A stretch of DNA of 64,000 nt, from positions 1,020,001 to 1,084,000 of the forward strand of contig NZ_CP118734.1 in NCBI RefSeq assembly GCF_032594935.1, written 5' to 3'. The position numbers were made by a program, and so were the translations under genes. Below, piece after piece: positions 6,085 through 48,350 of this stretch. Origin of the DNA: Streptococcus sp. 29892 (GTDB taxonomy: Bacteria > Bacillota > Bacilli > Lactobacillales > Streptococcaceae). The stretch's first letter is position 1, and each line of letters begins with the position of its first letter. The notes below the pieces were generated by a model, which worked only from the letters and a program-made list of their open reading frames with translations, searched no databases and was not told the DNA's origin.

Positions 6085-6149
6085 AAGTAAGCTGTTAAGG
6101 TATCTTAGAACTGAGCAGTTAGAAATTTGTTAGACTTATCTTATTTAAT

Positions 6150-6167
6150 GTCGCCCAGAGAGGCGAC
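6150..6167 (+). promoter_or_regulatory. PyrR-like binding hairpin before carA
   Basis: Perfect 6-bp stem GTCGCC / GGCGAC around CAGAGA, containing the PyrR-recognition string CCAGAGAGGC. It is followed 5 nt later by the Shine-Dalgarno GAAAGGAG (6173-6180). No U-tract terminator follows, unlike before pyrR, so control through access to the ribosome-binding site is a plausible reading (inference). Confidence 0.6.
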
Positions 6168-6188
6168 GAATAGAAAGGAGAAGGGGTG

Positions 6189-6307
6189 TTCTGTTGCTCG
6201 GATTTGTAACTGAATTCGGGCTACGGACTGGGTCAAAAAGATAGTTTTTCCTCGAACGCAAACGTTCTTGGTCAAACTCCTATTTTGACTGTGTCCGTTT
6301 AACGCCC
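6189..6307 (+). repeat. Structured repeat copy A, between Shine-Dalgarno and carA start
   Basis: A member of a repeat family also found before carB and twice before prfA. It has a 5' hairpin (TTCTGTT / AACTGAA), then a long interrupted stem: GGGC 6218-6221 with GCCC 6304-6307, GGAC with GTCC, GTCAAAA with TTTTGAC, AGTTT with AAACT, and a terminal hairpin GAACG-CAAA-CGTTC. The only Shine-Dalgarno candidate for carA is upstream of it at 6173-6182; the 16 nt between its end and ATG are A/T only with no G-rich site. Confidence 0.75.
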
Positions 6308-6323
6308 TTAATATCTTATTATT

Positions 6324-7400
6324 ATGTCAAAAAGACGTTTAATTTTGGAAGATGGTACTATTTTTGAAGGTGAGGCCTTTGGTGCTGATATTGATGTGAC
6401 TGGTGAGTTGGTTTTCTCGACTGGAATGACTGGTTATCAGGAATCAATCACAGACCAGTCCTATAATGGTCAGATTTTAACCTTTACCTATCCTTTAGTT
6501 GGAAATTACGGGATCAATCGAGATGATTATGAATCCATTAATCCGACCTGTAAGGGGGTTGTGGTTAGTGAATGGGCTCGTCGGGCAAGTAACTGGCGTA
6601 ACCAGATGAACTTGGATGAATTTTTAAAGGCTAAGAAAATTCCAGCTATTTCTGGAATTGACACACGCGCCTTGACTAAAATTATTCGCAAACACGGTAC
6701 CATGAAGGCCACCTTAGCAAATGTTGGTGATTCCGTTGAGCATTTGACGGATCAGCTGAGAGCGACTGTTTTGCCAACTAATAACATTCAGCAAGTATCT
6801 ACCAAAACAGCCTATCCTGCGCCTGGAATTGGACGTAGTGTTGTGCTGGTTGATTTTGGCTTGAAGCATTCTATTCTTCGTGAATTAGCAAAACGCGATT
6901 GCAATGTGACGGTTGTTCCTTACGATACGACAGCAGAAGAAATATTGGCTCTTAATCCAGACGGTGTCATGCTGTCAAACGGTCCTGGTAACCCAGATGA
7001 TGTTCCAGAAGCTTTGGACATGATTCGGGGCATTCTTGGAAAAATTCCAATTTTTGGTATCTGTATGGGGCACCAACTCTTTGCCAAGGCCAATGGTGCT
7101 ACAACTTATAAGATGAAGTTCGGACATCGTGGTTTTAACCATGCTGTTCGTGAAATCGCGACTGGTCGAGTAGATTTTACCAGTCAGAACCACGGTTATG
7201 CTGTGGCTCGTGAAGATTTGCCAGAGTGTTTGATGATTACACATGAGGAAATCAATGACAAATCAGTGGAAGGGGTACGCCATAAGTACCATCCAGGTTT
7301 CTCTGTTCAATTCCATCCGGATGCAGCACCTGGTCCACATGATGCTAGCTATCTCTTTGATGAATTTATGGATTTGATGGATGGCTTCCAGGCAAGATAA
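6324..7400 (+). CDS. carA: Carbamoyl-phosphate synthase small (glutamine amidotransferase) subunit
   Basis: CarA hydrolyses glutamine and passes ammonia to CarB. The 358-residue protein has the N-terminal CPSase small-chain domain (residues 1-150) and a class I glutamine amidotransferase domain with SNGPGNP, the nucleophile in FGICMGHQ (around residues 240-250), and the catalytic histidine region FHPDA.PGPHD, where most family members have HPEA. Start ATG 6324 gives the conserved [10 protein letters not shown]-terminus. Its Shine-Dalgarno is 140 nt upstream, separated by the structured repeat at 6189-6307. This is a clear carA in an odd translational setting. Confidence 0.95.
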
Positions 7401-7448
7401 TAAATCTATTGTTTACAATTTAGAAAACACTTTATTGCCGAATGTCAG

Positions 7449-7653
7449 TTATTTAATGTCAACCTGTGAGTTGACGAATAGAAAGGCAAGGGACAGGTCA
7501 ATGGTTGCAAGCAACTCATTTCCCTACGCCTGCCTCTATGGAGGTCAGGCTATCCCTTGCACTAGCAGTAAGGTTTACCTAATATCGAGCTAAACCTTAC
7601 TGCGTCGGACTTATCTTATTTAATGTCAACCTGTGAGTTGACGAATAGAAAGG
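7449..7653 (+). promoter_or_regulatory. Duplicated PyrR-like leader before carB
   Basis: A 38-bp sequence occurs twice, perfectly, at 7449-7486 and 7616-7653. Each copy holds a hairpin GTCAAC-CTGTGA-GTTGAC (7458-7475, 7625-7642) followed by GAATAGAAAGG. The same block precedes carA with compensated stem changes (GTCGCC / GGCGAC). Only the second copy continues into GGAGAAG. Between copies lies 129 bp with its own folds: GGCAAGGGA (7485-7493) pairs with TCCCTTGC (7553-7560), and GCAGTAAGGTTTA (7565-7577) pairs perfectly with 7591-7603. Confidence 0.65.
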
Positions 7654-7657
7654 AGAA

Positions 7658-7789
7658 GATACAGGTTCGAATTTTCCTATTCGAACACGCCCTAAGGACT
7701 GTGCGAAAAAGATAAACGTCGTCTGGATGCTTGAAGCATCAGCGTCGCGTTTCCTATTTTCGCTTTGTCCTCTTAACGGGCTTTGTATC
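7658..7789 (+). repeat. Structured repeat copy B, between Shine-Dalgarno and carB start
   Basis: The element starts and ends with pairing arms GATAC (7658-7662) and GTATC (7785-7789). Inside are a 5' hairpin GTTCGAA / TTCGAAC, then GCCC with GGGC, GGAC with GTCC, GCGAAAA with TTTTCGC, AAACG with CGTTT and a terminal hairpin GATGC-TTGAA-GCATC. ATACA occurs at both edges (7659-7663 and 7790-7794), like a 5-bp target duplication. Shine-Dalgarno AAAGGAG sits at 7649-7655 immediately upstream; only ATACATT separates the element from ATG 7797. Confidence 0.8.
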
Positions 7790-7796
7790 ATACATT

Positions 7797-10700
7797 ATGC
7801 CAAAACGTACGGATATTAAGAAAATTATGGTGATTGGGTCTGGTCCGATTATTATCGGTCAGGCTGCGGAGTTTGATTATGCTGGAACTCAGGCTTGTTT
7901 GGCCTTGAAAGAAGAAGGTTATAGCGTTGTCCTGGTCAATTCAAACCCTGCGACCATCATGACAGATAAGGAAATTGCGGATAAGGTTTATATTGAGCCG
8001 ATTACGCTTGAATTTGTCACACGGATTTTACGGAAGGAGCGTCCAGATGCTCTCTTGCCAACCCTGGGTGGTCAGACAGGTCTTAATATGGCCATGGAAT
8101 TGTCCAAGGCTGGTATTTTAGATGAGCTTGGAGTTGAGCTGTTGGGAACTAAACTGTCTGCAATTGATCAGGCAGAGGACCGCGACCTCTTCAAACAACT
8201 CATGGAAGACCTCAATCAGCCTATTCCTGAGTCAACGATTGTGACGACAGTTGACGAGGCTTTGGCATTTGCCAAGGAAATCGGCTATCCTGTCATCGTT
8301 CGTCCAGCCTTCACGCTGGGTGGAACTGGTGGTGGTATGTGTGCCAATGAAGAAGAACTGCAAGAAATTGCAGAAAATGGTCTAAAATTGTCACCAGTGA
8401 CCCAGTGTTTGATTGAGCGTTCCATTGCTGGTTTCAAGGAAATCGAATACGAAGTGATGCGCGATGCGGCTGATAATGCCTTGGTCGTATGTAACATGGA
8501 AAACTTTGACCCTGTGGGAATTCATACAGGAGATTCTATCGTATTTGCCCCAACGCAGACGCTTTCGGATATTGAAAACCAGATGCTGCGTGATGCCAGC
8601 CTCAGCATTATTCGTGCCCTCAAAATCGAGGGTGGCTGTAATGTGCAGTTGGCACTAGATCCACATAGTTTCAAATATTATGTCATTGAAGTAAACCCAC
8701 GTGTGTCCCGTTCCTCTGCCTTGGCATCGAAAGCGACAGGTTATCCTATCGCCAAATTGGCAGCAAAAATTGCGGTTGGCTTGACCTTGGATGAAATGGT
8801 CAACCCTGTTACAGGAACAACCTATGCCATGTTTGAGCCTGCACTTGACTACGTTGTGGCAAAAATTCCACGTTTCCCATTTGACAAGTTTGAAAAAGGG
8901 GAGCGTCGCCTTGGAACCCAGATGAAGGCAACTGGCGAGGTCATGGCCATAGGTCGTAACATCGAAGAAAGTCTGCTCAAGGCCTGCCGTTCTTTGGAAA
9001 TTGGTGTTTATCACAATGAAATGCCAGAACTCAGCCAAGTGACAGATGACCAATTGGTTGAAAAGATTGTCAAGGCTCAAGATGACCGACTCTTCTATCT
9101 TTCAGAAGCCCTTCGCCGTGGCTATACAGTAGAAGAATTGGCTCAATTGACAAAAATTGATGTTTTCTTTCTTGACAAGCTATTGCACATCTTGGAAATC
9201 GAGCAGGAATTGGCAATCAATCACGATAATATCGACTTATTGAAAAAAGCCAAGAAATACGGTTTTGCAGACCGCAAGATTGCGGAACTCTGGGGACGGA
9301 CAGAATCCTACATCCGTCAACTGAGAGCAGACCACAAGATTGTACCCGTTTACAAGATGGTGGACACTTGTGCGGCTGAGTTTGAAAGTGCTACGCCATA
9401 TTTCTATTCAACTTATGAGTGGGAAAATGAATCCATCCGTTCGGAGAAAGAATCTGTTTTGGTGCTGGGTTCTGGTCCAATTCGTATCGGTCAGGGTGTA
9501 GAGTTTGACTATGCGACGGTACATTCTGTAAAAGCTATTCAGGCCGCTGGCTACGAAGCCATCATTATGAACTCAAACCCTGAAACGGTGTCTACTGACT
9601 TTTCAGTTTCGGACAAGCTTTATTTTGAGCCATTGACCTTGGAAGATGTCTTGAATGTCATCGATTTGGAACAGCCTAAAGGGGTTATCGTTCAGTTTGG
9701 TGGACAGACAGCCATCAATTTGGCAGAGCCATTGGCAAAAGCAGGCATTCCAATCTTGGGTACGCAAGTAGCGGATTTGGATAGAGCTGAAGACAGGGAT
9801 TTATTTGAAAAAGCCCTGAAAGACCTTGGTATTCCACAGCCACCAGGTCAAACCGCAACCAACGAAGAGGAAGCACTAGAAGCGGCCCGCAAAATTGGTT
9901 TCCCAGTACTTGTTCGTCCCTCTTATGTCTTGGGCGGTCGTGCTATGGAAATTGTCGAAAATGAAGCAGACCTACGTTCTTATATGAGAACGGCGGTCAA
10001 GGCTTCGCCAGAGCACCCAGTTTTGGTGGATTCTTACATCATCGGTCGTGAGTGTGAAGTGGATGCCATTTCAGATGGTAAGGATGTCTTGATTCCAGGT
10101 ATTATGGAGCATATCGAGCGCGCAGGGGTTCACTCAGGTGACTCTATGGCAGTTTATCCCCCACAAACCTTGTCTAAAGAGGTACAGGCGACCATTGCAG
10201 ACTACACTAAACGATTAGCAATCGGTCTTAACTGCATCGGTATGATGAATATCCAGTTTGTTATTAAGGATGAAACAGTCTATGTCATTGAGGTCAATCC
10301 ACGCGCCAGTCGTACGGTGCCATTCTTGTCCAAAGTCACAGACATTCCAATGGCTCAGGTTGCAACCAAATTGATTTTGGGACAAAGCCTTGCGGAACTG
10401 GGTTACCAAGACGGTCTTTATCCTGAGAGCAAGCAAGTGCACGTCAAAGCACCAGTATTCTCATTTACAAAATTGGCTAAAGTTGACAGTTTGTTAGGAC
10501 CAGAGATGAAGTCAACCGGTGAGATTATGGGATCAGACTTGACGTTGGAAAAAGCACTGTATAAGGCTTTTGAAGCAAGCTATCAACATCTGTCTGAGTT
10601 TGGTAATGTAGTCTTTACCATTGCGGATGAAGACAAGGAAGAAGCTCTTGGACTTGCCCAACGCTTCCATGAACTAGGCTATGGTCTGCTGGCCACGGCA

Positions 10701-10976
10701 GGTACAGCTACCTATCTGGCTGCTAAGGGACTATCCGTGACAACTGTTGGCAAATTGGGCGATGCAGCTTATCAAGATATTCCAAGTCTTGTTCGAGCAG
10801 GTAAGGTTCAGGCGATTATCAATACGGTTGGTAAAAAACGGGTAGCGGATGGCGATGGTCAGGTCATTCGAAGCTCTGCTATTGAAGGAGGAATCCCACT
10901 CTTTACAGCCCTTGATACAGCAGAAGCCATGATTAAGGTGTTGGAAAGCCGTAGCTTTATGACACAGGCTATATAG
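7797..10976 (+). CDS. carB: Carbamoyl-phosphate synthase large subunit
   Basis: CarB makes carbamoyl phosphate from bicarbonate, ammonia and two ATP. The 1059-residue protein shows the duplicated ATP-grasp architecture: N-terminal half with [13 protein letters not shown] at the start and GGTGGG around residue 175, C-terminal half with [14 protein letters not shown] around residue 558, and an MGS-like allosteric domain in the last 140 residues, where UMP and ornithine normally act. ATG 7797 gives the conserved [11 protein letters not shown]-terminus; an in-frame ATG at 7731 would translate part of the repeat and is rejected. Length is as expected. Monocistronic with its own leader. Confidence 0.95.
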
Positions 10977-46310: not shown

Positions 46311-47130
46311 CCACTACAACCTTTCTATCCTGACCGAATTGGTCTTTTATAACGCGAACACGCTTTTCGGGAAAATGCAGGACCAGTAAGTCTGTTAAGG
46401 CCTGCCCTTGCTTGTAGCCAATTTCAAAGTAGAGTTTTCCATTTTCCTTCAAAAATGCCCCTGCCTGTTCCGCAATTTGTCGATAGATGGCCAGCCCATC
46501 TTCTTCTGCGAACAGGGCTAAATGTGGTTCCGATGTTAAAACATTGGCTCCAACTTCGTCCTTGTCGTCTGGTGAGATATAAGGTGGATTGGAAACAATG
46601 ATATCAAATTGACCTGTCACAGCTTGCAAGACATCCGACTGTATGAATTGAACAGAAACCTGATTGCTTCTTGCATTTTCCTGAGCCACTGCCAAGGCAT
46701 CTTCTGAAATATCTACTGCTACCACTTCCCAATCAGGTCTAGCTTTTGCAAGGGAAATTGCAATAGCACCGCTTCCTGTACCGATATCTAAGATACGCAA
46801 ACCTGCTCTGCTATTTTCCTGCAAAATCAAATCGACCAATTCTTCCGTTTCTGGTCTTGGAATTAAAACCCGCTCGTCCACCGCAAACTTCAAGTCGTGA
46901 AAATCAGCCTTGCCGATAATGTACTGGGCAGGTCGGTGCTGGGAGAGTTGCTGAAAAATATGGTTTAGTAGCTCTTGGTCATCTGGACTAACGTCCTGGC
47001 GGAGCAAGAGGAGAAATTCCGTAAAATTCAGTCCTTTTAAGCCTCGAAAGGTGAAGGACAGGGACTCTGCCTCTTCACCTATTGCTACTAATTCTTCTTC
47101 GTATGCTGCAAATAATTGAGCGTAATTCAT
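46297..47130 (-). CDS. prmC: Peptide chain release factor N5-glutamine methyltransferase PrmC
   Basis: PrmC methylates the glutamine of the GGQ motif in release factors. 277 residues: N-terminal helical substrate-binding domain (to about residue 75), then SAM-binding LDIGTGSGAIAIS (around 113-125) and the catalytic IIVSNPPYIS (around 183-192). It sits directly downstream of its substrate gene prfA with a 1-nt overlap, the common bacterial order. Confidence 0.97.
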   Translation of the reverse strand: MNYAQLFAAYEEELVAIGEEAESLSFTFRGLKGLNFTEFLLLLRQDVSPDDQELLNHIFQQLSQHRPAQYIIGKADFHDLKFAVDERVLIPRPETEELVDLILQENSRAGLRILDIGTGSGAIAISLAKARPDWEVVAVDISEDALAVAQENARSNQVSVQFIQSDVLQAVTGQFDIIVSNPPYISPDDKDEVGANVLTSEPHLALFAEEDGLAIYRQIAEQAGAFLKENGKLYFEIGYKQGQALTDLLVLHFPEKRVRVIKDQFGQDRKVVVDDNG

Positions 47131-48209
47131 TATTTATTAAGCTCTTCCAGTTTTTGTGTTTGGTCGTAGAGTACAAGGGCATCGACAACTTCGTCCATCT
47201 TACCTGACAAGATGGTATCGAGCTTCTGCAAGGTCAAGCCGATACGGTGGTCTGTCACACGGTTTTGTGGGAAGTTGTAAGTACGGATACGCTCTGAACG
47301 GTCACCAGTACCGATAGTTGATTTACGCTCTGCATCCTGCTCATCTTGGGCAATCTGTGCAAAGTGATCAGCTACACGGGCACGGATAATCTTCATAGCT
47401 TTTTCACGGTTTTTCTGCTGGGTCCGTTCTTCCTGCATTTCCACCTTGATGTTGGTTGGCAAGTGAACGATACGCACGGCAGTCGCAACCTTGTTGACGT
47501 TCTGTCCACCAGCACCAGATGCGTGGTAGATATCAACACGGAGGTCTTTTGGATCAATGTCGTATTCTACTTCTTCTACTTCTGGCATGATGAGGACAGT
47601 TGCTGTTGAGGTGTGGACACGACCTTGGCTTTCTGTTACAGGGACACGTTGGACACGGTGAGCTCCTGACTCATACTTGAGTTTTGAATAAACGGATTGG
47701 CCAGATACCATGGCAACCACTTCCTTGATACCACCAACACCGTTATATGAAGCCTCCATGACTTCAAAACGCCAGCCTTGACCTTCTGCATATTTTTGGT
47801 ACATGGTCAAAAGGTCACCAGCAAAGAGGGCAGCCTCGTCACCACCTGCAGCACCACGGATTTCCAAGATGATGTTTTTGTCATCGTTAGGGTCTTTGGG
47901 CAAGAGAAGGATTTTCAACTTTTCTTCATATGCTTCTTTGTCAGCTTTTGCTTGTTTTAGTTCTTCCTTAGCCATTTCCTCCAAGTCAGAATCGCCAGAA
48001 GATTCTTTGATCATTTCTTCTGCATCGACAATGTTTTGAAGTACATTCTTATATTCACGGTAGGCTGTTACTGTATCACGAGTTGCCGCTTCTTCTTTGG
48101 ACAACTCCATAAAACGCTTGGTATCGCTGACCACATCAGGGTCAGACAACAATTCACCAAGTTCCTCATAGCGGTCCTCCACCGCCTGTAATTGATCGTA
48201 GATGTTCAT
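47130..48209 (-). CDS. prfA: Peptide chain release factor 1
   Basis: RF1 terminates translation at UAA/UAG. 359 residues with the decoding motif region [14 protein letters not shown], the catalytic [10 protein letters not shown] (GGQ around residue 231-233) and the C-terminal helical domain. ATG at 48209-48207 has no Shine-Dalgarno within 100 nt; the nearest AGAAAGGA (minus strand, 48333-48326) is separated from it by the structured repeat at 48218-48322. Confidence 0.97.
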
Positions 48210-48217
48210 AAAATTAA

Positions 48218-48350
48218 GATATTAAGGGCGTTAAACGAACAAAGCAAAAATAGGAGTTTTGACGAAGGACGAAAGCGTCCTAGGAAAAACTATCATTTTT
48301 GCACAGTTCGTAGCCCGAATTCAGTTCCTTTCTAAAAATTTGGAAAGAAC
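48218..48350 (-). repeat. Structured repeat copy C before prfA
   Basis: In prfA sense: 5' hairpin GTTCTTTC / GAAAGGAAC (48350-48324), then GGGC with GCCC, GAAC with GTTC, GCAAAAA with TTTTTGC, AGTTTT with AAAACT and terminal hairpin GGACG-CTTT-CGTCC. It ends 8 nt before ATG. Same conserved CCTA near the 3' inner stem as the carA and carB copies. Confidence 0.8.

Follow-up and report, generated by a model that had tools for sequence, protein, structure and literature searches.

Hairpin repeats between the Shine-Dalgarno sequence and the start codon of streptococcal housekeeping genes

REP/BIME elements are extragenic imperfect palindromes that occur in multiple copies and in tandem, and the Byp elements of Magnusiomyces mitochondria are mobile inserts that remain unspliced and are crossed by the ribosome through translational bypassing. 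Among streptococci, BOX (boxA-boxB-boxC) is known from S. pneumoniae, S. mitis, and S. suis (RepSU1). For S. suis, the Croucher 2011 survey describes two modules, boxE (115 nt) and boxF (133 nt), presents them as the two ends of a composite, and reports 11 boxC per S. suis genome, coinciding with RepSU1. Outside S. pneumoniae, S. mitis, and S. suis, the same survey met with almost none of its repeats in streptococci, with no thorough de novo search run in other species (PMC3049150). In two genes of phage T4, a secondary structure between the Shine-Dalgarno sequence (SD) and AUG brings the spacing back to a functional length, from 22 to 5 nt (gene 38) and from 27 to 11 nt (gene 25) (PMC3014915).

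Here we describe a streptococcal repeat that takes up this position in the 64-kb window (the whole stretch of 64,000 nucleotides analysed) and at many other loci of the genus. The family is much larger than the four copies first reported, and our reading of it has moved from an RNA regulator to what is probably a mobile DNA-hairpin repeat in ribosome-binding sites (RBSs), predicted to be bridged by folding.

Copies in the window and their common fold

All four full copies reported by the initial annotation are present where it had placed them, both in the sequence and as cores recognized by the covariance model R1, which was built from an alignment of 12 copies (A3). A pattern search and a blast search found further copies in the genome that contains the window. 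The copies at carA and carB and the prfA-C copy lie between the SD and the start codon, and the sole SD of these genes is located on the far side of the element, as had been noted. The placement does not extend to the fourth copy, prfA-D, which ends 180 nt upstream of prfA. At carA, 145 nt separate the end of the SD 6-mer from the start codon. No Rfam family matched the 64-kb window at its gathering score.

Table 1 Features of the carA, carB, and prfA loci in the window
Feature	Position	Strand	Basis
PyrR-type stem-loop GTCGCCCAGAGAGGCGAC, upstream of carA SD	6150..6167	+	sequence
carA SD GAAAGGAG, far side of element	6173..6180	+	sequence
carA three-way-junction parts: 5' basal arm 6182-6190 (pairs with 6301-6309) and left hairpin 6196-6221	6182..6221	+	constrained fold
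Element core, carA copy	6210..6317	+	R1, 111.1 bits
carA, carbamoyl-phosphate synthase small subunit; ATG 6 nt past element	6324..7400	+	NCBIfam NF009475, TIGR01368
First PyrR-type stem-loop of the carA-carB gap	7458..7475	+	likeness to 6150-6167 only
Second PyrR-type stem-loop, abutting carB SD upstream	7625..7642	+	likeness to 6150-6167 only
carB SD GAAAGGAG	7648..7655	+	sequence
carB basal arm 7658-7664 (pairs with 7783-7789) and left hairpin 7665-7686	7658..7686	+	fold
Element core, carB copy	7681..7791	+	R1, 103.2 bits
carB, large subunit; ATG 5 nt past element	7797..10976	+	NCBIfam NF003671, TIGR01369
prfA, release factor 1	47130..48209	-	NCBIfam TIGR00019
Element core, prfA-C copy, short form, in SD-ATG interval	48216..48324	-	R1, 123.5 bits
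prfA SD GAAAGGAA, abutting element	48325..48332	-	sequence
Element core, prfA-D copy, upstream, away from any start codon	48390..48497	-	R1, 118.1 bits

The core of about 108 nt reveals five nested stems and the fixed internal loops AGAT/CCTA and TCCT/CGTC. Its 5' half begins with (T)TGAAC(A/T/C)CG and continues through stem 1, TA, stem 2, TGT, stem 3 (with an AAAA end), AGAT, stem 4, and TCCT to the terminal hairpin. The 3' half then runs through CGTC, stem 4', CCTA, the TTTT of stem 3', TGT or TTT, stem 2', TTTAAC, stem 1', and TT to xGTATCTT. The outermost pairing joins GAACx with xGTATC and leaves one bulged A. The loops are near-invariant, while the stem letters vary freely. Of the two unpaired motifs noted earlier, CCTA on the 3' side is conserved, but the conserved loop opposite it is AGAT rather than GATA. 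Similarly, the stems listed at that time are present but do not form the complete set, as the carA and carB copies also possess a basal stem and a left hairpin.

In the four window copies, RNAalifold identified 32 pairs, 17 of which carry a pair-preserving change on both sides, bearing out the earlier statement that pairing is kept while the sequence changes. The shuffle test of folding energy took in the carA, carB, and prfA-C stretches, which gave MFE z-scores of -6.2, -4.0, and -4.8, respectively, with 0 of 200 shuffles equally stable. In A3, 90.7% of the cells were paired compared with 71.9% in shuffled alignments, and the covariation score was 0.520 compared with 0.191 for shuffled alignments and at most 0.176 for slid structures. 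The alignment of 132 matches (A6, 119 distinct rows), which was fitted to R1 and is thus biased towards the structure, had 96.0% paired cells (71.1% shuffled), a covariation score of 0.609 (0.160 shuffled, at most 0.120 for slid structures), and two-sided change in 29 of the 32 pairs. As regards a possible MITE-like repeat, the outer stem pairs GAACx with xGTATC, and by eye short spacers recur in tandem arrays; a clean empty site with a target duplication was not obtained.

A PyrR-like structure is also found in these leaders. The carA leader (6138-6252) looks like PyrR control, with a stem-loop just 5' of the SD, and Rfam PyrR (RF00515), the one relevant family with a sub-threshold match beside the carA copy, scored 32 bits on this segment (E 0.053), below its gathering score of 54. 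Among 18 element-free carA sites, 15 have a PyrR-type stem-loop and, a few nt before the ATG, an ordinary SD (e.g. ACGAGG or GAGAGGTG) by eye. As most element-free relatives thus carry a similar stem-loop directly before an ordinary SD, the sequences suggest translational PyrR control of carA. In the carA-carB gap (7440-7660), two near-identical PyrR-type leader units (..TTTAATGTCAACCTGTGAGTTGACGAATAGAAAGG..) flank about 130 nt, in which further inverted repeats, GCAAGGGA..TCCCTTGC and AGTAAGGTTTA..TAAACCTTACT, are present. In more distant genomes (L398-L406), ACGAATAGAAAGGAGAAG or close variants are also located upstream of the carB element.

Spread of the family and its position at start codons

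The covariance model proposed in the initial annotation was meant for S. suis genomes. Once built and run, it showed the family to be genus-wide rather than an S. suis speciality: with up to 15 candidates scored per genome, 243 of the 247 from Streptococcus had a match at E<=0.001. The covariation was far above that of shuffled alignments. The genome that contains the window has 17 R1 matches at E<1e-5 and two weaker ones. An order-wide scan of 295 genomes gave 67 with a match, 45 from Streptococcus and 22 from seven other genera of Lactobacillales. The matches from the other genera are weaker (E about 1e-9 to 1e-3), and in 11 of these genomes many of them are same-direction neighbours about 120 nt apart. 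The SD-element-AUG arrangement was found in 0 of the 27 loci inspected from these 11 genomes (27 of 30 outside loci; L107, L110, and L117, at contig ends, were set aside). In two non-Streptococcus genomes, G255 and G314, near-identical copies stand in tandem with a period of about 120 bases (L095, L105, L113, L094, L104, and L112), and the G255 copies listed are all on one strand.

Within Streptococcus, some genomes contain near-identical copies as well as tandem mixtures of different members. In G023, copies with identical scores (1053542, 1254216, 1378256, and 1965410) each have a partner about 370 bp away, and G213 has five copies that all score 54.5 bits; these repeated copies possibly ride inside a larger mobile unit. 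A blast search detected one element copy in each of two S. gallolyticus phage records. In phage MN270258 (L016 4006-4112), the element precedes a long agglutinin-receptor gene, whose start is about 50 nt away. Among 80 loci that a loose pattern drew from viral contigs, R1 confirmed at least four copies in at least three loci, and a search of plasmids with the dnaJ copy of the element gave no match.

To count the copies at RBSs, we placed 93 of the 94 matches at E<=1e-5 (all but G060:1920850) from five genomes, namely the genome of the window and four others, with G023 and G213 set aside. Some of the ORFs assigned downstream of the copies are chance frames. A copy entered the strict count if an SD-like 5- or 6-mer stood no more than 45 nt ahead of it, the gap was free of an SD, and the start codon followed at -3 to 6 nt. 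By this count, 30 of the 93 copies have the exact SD-element-AUG arrangement with a GAAAGGA-type SD (10/17 in the genome of the window and 5/22, 5/15, 5/20, and 5/19 in the others). The probability of 30/93 for the whole set is at most 4e-9 at rates of 0.4%, 3.6%, or 10% per copy, where the rates are assumptions and orthologous sites are non-independent. Random placement, the outcome named beforehand as speaking against the proposal, is therefore not what was found. A covarying structured family placed between SD and start codon is supported, and the other 63 of the 93 copies lie away from RBSs. Because the family is genus-wide and most of these copies are off RBSs, the element behaves as a dispersed repeat over-represented at RBSs rather than as a pure cis-regulator.

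The host genes identified above the NCBIfam cut-off are prfA, proS, alaS, fpg/mutM, deoD, prmA, carA, carB, and dnaJ. The partial proteins of parC and dihydrolipoyl dehydrogenase (L030, just under) scored below it, and two more hosts are a gene with weak methyltransferase matches and a 112-aa gene without an NCBIfam match.

We compared dnaJ in the best 80 of at least 573 confirmed loci, 52 from Streptococcus and 28 from other genera. A family member stands against the ATG in 46 of the 52 Streptococcus loci (45 full, one truncated) and in 0 of the 28 loci from other genera. In four of the 45 loci with a full member (L120, L123, L163, and L165), no SD is present within 45 nt upstream, and the SD lies farther off. 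The 47 dnaJ copies form 7 or 8 sequence clusters, five of which have at least four copies at the loosest cut, indicating that different members occupy one site. Among the same best 80 of at least 573 loci, the closest named proteins to DnaJ of the window's genome are those of S. suis (97%). In several dnaJ leaders (L118-L169, 190 nt before dnaJ), remnants consisting of an older SD and the first 15-30 nt of another member can be seen by eye upstream of the intact SD and member in use.

Across 30 carA-carB loci, carB has the element in 28, and the remaining two are without an identified carB start. The element is present at carA in 12 loci, all within the 13 best CarA matches. The two genes share element types, as two clusters at 85% contain copies from both. 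Taken with dnaJ (46/52, best 80 of at least 573), the occupancy of carB in near and distant members (28/30) is what might be expected of a class of mobile element adapted to RBSs. Such an element would insert between SD and AUG and be 'spliced' by folding alone, with translation of the host gene carried over it; it would then become obligatory RBS architecture and be inherited and swapped by recombination genus-wide. We put this forward tentatively, as a possibility that may well not hold.

Geometry, folding, and strand symmetry

RBS-type copies number 98 among 228 distinct copies with context. Of 110 copies whose end adjoins an apparent start codon, 98 are preceded by a GAAAGGA-type SD at a distance of no more than 45 nt; among the remaining 12, several face chance frames and one is the carA copy with its upstream cut off. 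By comparison, an SD-like 6-mer was detected upstream of 12 of the 118 copies without an adjacent start codon. As the SD criterion defines the 98, the link between SD and element is an association only. In these 98 copies, the distance from the end of the SD core to the element is 2 nt in 27 and 13-37 nt in 71, the start codon lies -2 to 6 nt past its end, and the linear SD-start distance is 78-153 nt, with a median of 131. They accordingly have the layout of a split RBS, with the SD too distant from AUG and a structure in between, having been chosen for their upstream SD.

An SD core (one of six 4-nt cores) in the last 20 nt was found in 1 of the 98 RBS copies. This is also what would be seen if the upstream SD were unused and the 3' end of the element were the site of transcript starts or processing, with leaderless or standby binding, and structured leaders commonly serve as processing sites. 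However, start-adjacent copies carry the GAAAGGA-type SD far more often than SD-like 6-mers occur elsewhere, albeit as an association only, and the basal stems begin beside the SD, which makes an unused SD very improbable in our judgment. A leader peptide or coupling ORF starting from the upstream SD was rejected as well: a start codon follows the SD by 3-12 nt in 34 of the 98, but 1 ends near the main start.

When the SD and AUG were kept free of pairing, a three-way junction formed in 15 of the 20 non-redundant copies with a long gap, compared with 17 of 200 shuffled spacers. It consists of a basal stem beside the SD, a left hairpin that shares the GAAC strand, and the main hairpin. The letters of the basal stem vary by gene yet pair (AAGGGC:GCCCTT, GATACA:TGTATC, and ATACAA:TTGTAT). 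A perfect left helix of at least 6 bp is present in 11 of the 20 long-gap RBS copies versus 4% of the shuffles. The folded SD-AUG path, with a median of 12 nt, is no shorter than in shuffled RNAs (median 12); the path measure alone thus lends bridging no support, and we rejected it as proof of bridging.

Whether the stems are kept as RNA or as DNA can be read from their mismatches: upkeep as RNA should tolerate G-U but not A-C, whereas upkeep as DNA should leave both equally rare. In A6 (132 matches), 47 G-U and 51 A-C/C-A were counted among 3,695 cells. Because this alignment leans to the model structure, the test was redone without the model by a common procedure (MAFFT, RNAalifold). The element then gave 54 G-U versus 53 A-C among 2,134 cells (75 rows), whereas the order-wide 6S RNA control gave 164 versus 30 among 1,333 cells (29 rows). 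This strand symmetry implies that the stems are kept mainly as Watson-Crick DNA hairpins. The initial annotation had attributed the covariation to selection on folded RNA or cruciform DNA; the counts agree with the DNA level and, family-wide, not with the RNA level.

The RBS copies differ somewhat from the others. They contain 31 G-U versus 15 A-C events (p 0.026, each change counted once per cluster), compared with 38 versus 43 in non-RBS copies (Fisher p 0.028 between the two), a modest excess in per-cluster counts without phylogenetic correction. Among the 32 related copies that make up the two largest carA/carB groups, 24 G-U cells and 0 A-C were counted, and the dnaJ-proximal rows gave 16 versus 7. 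No G-U excess was observed in 28 non-redundant RBS representatives (10 versus 11). These counts hint that RBS-resident copies may be under RNA-level constraint. The simplest story is one in which the element spreads and is maintained as a DNA hairpin, on which its mobility would depend, and RNA-level selection perhaps acts afterwards on the resident copies.

The leaning of RBS copies towards G-U, including that of the two carA/carB groups, would also be consistent with a dedicated cis-regulatory RNA. In such a system, a protein, metabolite, or temperature sensor would switch the leader from its left-hairpin/three-way form to a simple hairpin and back, and thereby gate SD-AUG contact in a regulon (dnaJ, deoD, parC, prmA, carB, and aminoacyl-tRNA synthetase genes). 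The element indeed sits at orthologous genes across the genus, its unpaired loops are fixed, and its GAAC strand is able to pair upstream or downstream, with the left helix exceeding the shuffled rate. Nevertheless, stems that are strand-symmetric family-wide, in contrast to 6S RNA, the 63/93 copies off RBSs, a dnaJ site held by differing sequence types, and host genes among which no common pathway is apparent make a regulator of this kind unlikely.

The reading to which we incline, if only somewhat, is a mobile DNA-hairpin repeat that makes up the spacer of a split RBS, whether it is tolerated there or put to use. A small non-autonomous repeat family, conserved as a bulged DNA hairpin of five Watson-Crick stems with fixed internal loops, would have dispersed along the streptococcal chromosome, frequently as tandem arrays of one orientation; it is also found outside the genus. 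A large share of its copies would have lodged exactly in the SD-start codon spacer of housekeeping genes. Once transcribed, an RBS copy is predicted to refold as one compact domain, a simple hairpin where the SD abuts the element and a three-way junction with its basal stem starting by the SD where the gap is longer. The SD and AUG would thereby be brought to the base of a single helix, which would permit initiation across the gap of 78-153 nt, as in T4 gene 25. We propose that an RBS copy is retained because its transcript refolds to bring the SD and AUG together. The genes with RBS copies are probably translated by such SD-AUG bridging.

If this is true, the rule that the SD lies 5-10 nt before AUG, on which gene finding and RBS design draw, does not hold for dnaJ in the majority of Streptococcus loci compared (best 80 of at least 573) and at other housekeeping genes. 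Moreover, a mobile repeat would have turned into the spacer of essential RBSs, providing many natural experiments on the SD-AUG separation that is tolerated when RNA structure joins both. In addition, comparing G-U with A-C counts offers an easy way to tell, for any repeat family, whether selection has acted on a DNA hairpin or on an RNA hairpin.

Relation to known repeats and split ribosome-binding sites

A motif that we take to be boxC was used as the query for BOX copies and proved real and common, with 61 of 118 genomes having it within 3 mismatches. The BOX model R2, built from 13 boxA-boxC copies, had 10 strong matches in the genome of the window (E<1e-6), none of which is an element copy, in agreement with the 11 boxC per S. 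suis genome given by the survey (PMC3049150). On 13 element-bearing sources, R2 produced one strong match (L018 409-514), and this was to a BOX copy distinct from the element (266556); on the element copies themselves it reached E 0.04-0.2 only. Likewise, the best match of R1 on 13 BOX loci had E 0.051. As the two models miss each other's families, we rejected identity with boxA/boxC BOX/RepSU1. The earlier remark that the element is not BOX holds for this type, on the strength of the cross-model searches and the differing ends. By eye, BOX and the element are both small interspersed bulged-hairpin repeats of streptococci with CGTC and CCTA loop letters. However, the CGTC and CCTA sides are swapped, and BOX termini are ATACTC/GAGTAT, whereas the element ends in TTGAAC and GTATCTT.

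The S. suis boxE/boxF family might overlap with the element, which is the main threat to its novelty. In the plainest form of this alternative, the element would be a BOX-type repeat of that family, a functionless genomic parasite whose RBS positions are tolerated insertions. The reported lengths of boxE and boxF and the bulged hairpin with CGTC/CCTA loop letters are in its favor, but the boxA/boxC model touches the element copies only weakly and R1 reaches E 0.051 at best on BOX. Furthermore, going by the published description, boxE and boxF are the ends of a composite, whereas the element is complete in about 108 nt; the survey nearly confines its repeats to three species, whereas the element is found in 243/247 genomes (PMC3049150). 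We consider this alternative quite unlikely. Small structured streptococcal repeats evidently extend well past pneumococcus, S. mitis, and S. suis, where that survey places the families it found (PMC3049150). In the literature searched, we found no paper describing the element at an RBS.

Like REP/BIME elements, the streptococcal element is an extragenic imperfect palindrome that is multicopy and tandem, but its sequence is unlike theirs. Y1_Tnp (HUH) was detected in 6 of 15 genomes searched and was absent from five element-bearing genomes (G206, G138, G169, G255, and G247), leading us to reject RAYT mobilisation. In contrast to Byp, which lies inside reading frames and is hopped over, the element stands before the start codon. 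In mechanism, T4 genes 25 and 38, whose split RBS has a structure between SD and AUG, come nearest (PMC3014915). The T4 examples are two phage genes with spacings of 22 and 27 nt, whereas the element is a dispersed repeat of about 110 nt at conserved bacterial genes, where the distance that folding would bridge is 78-153 nt.
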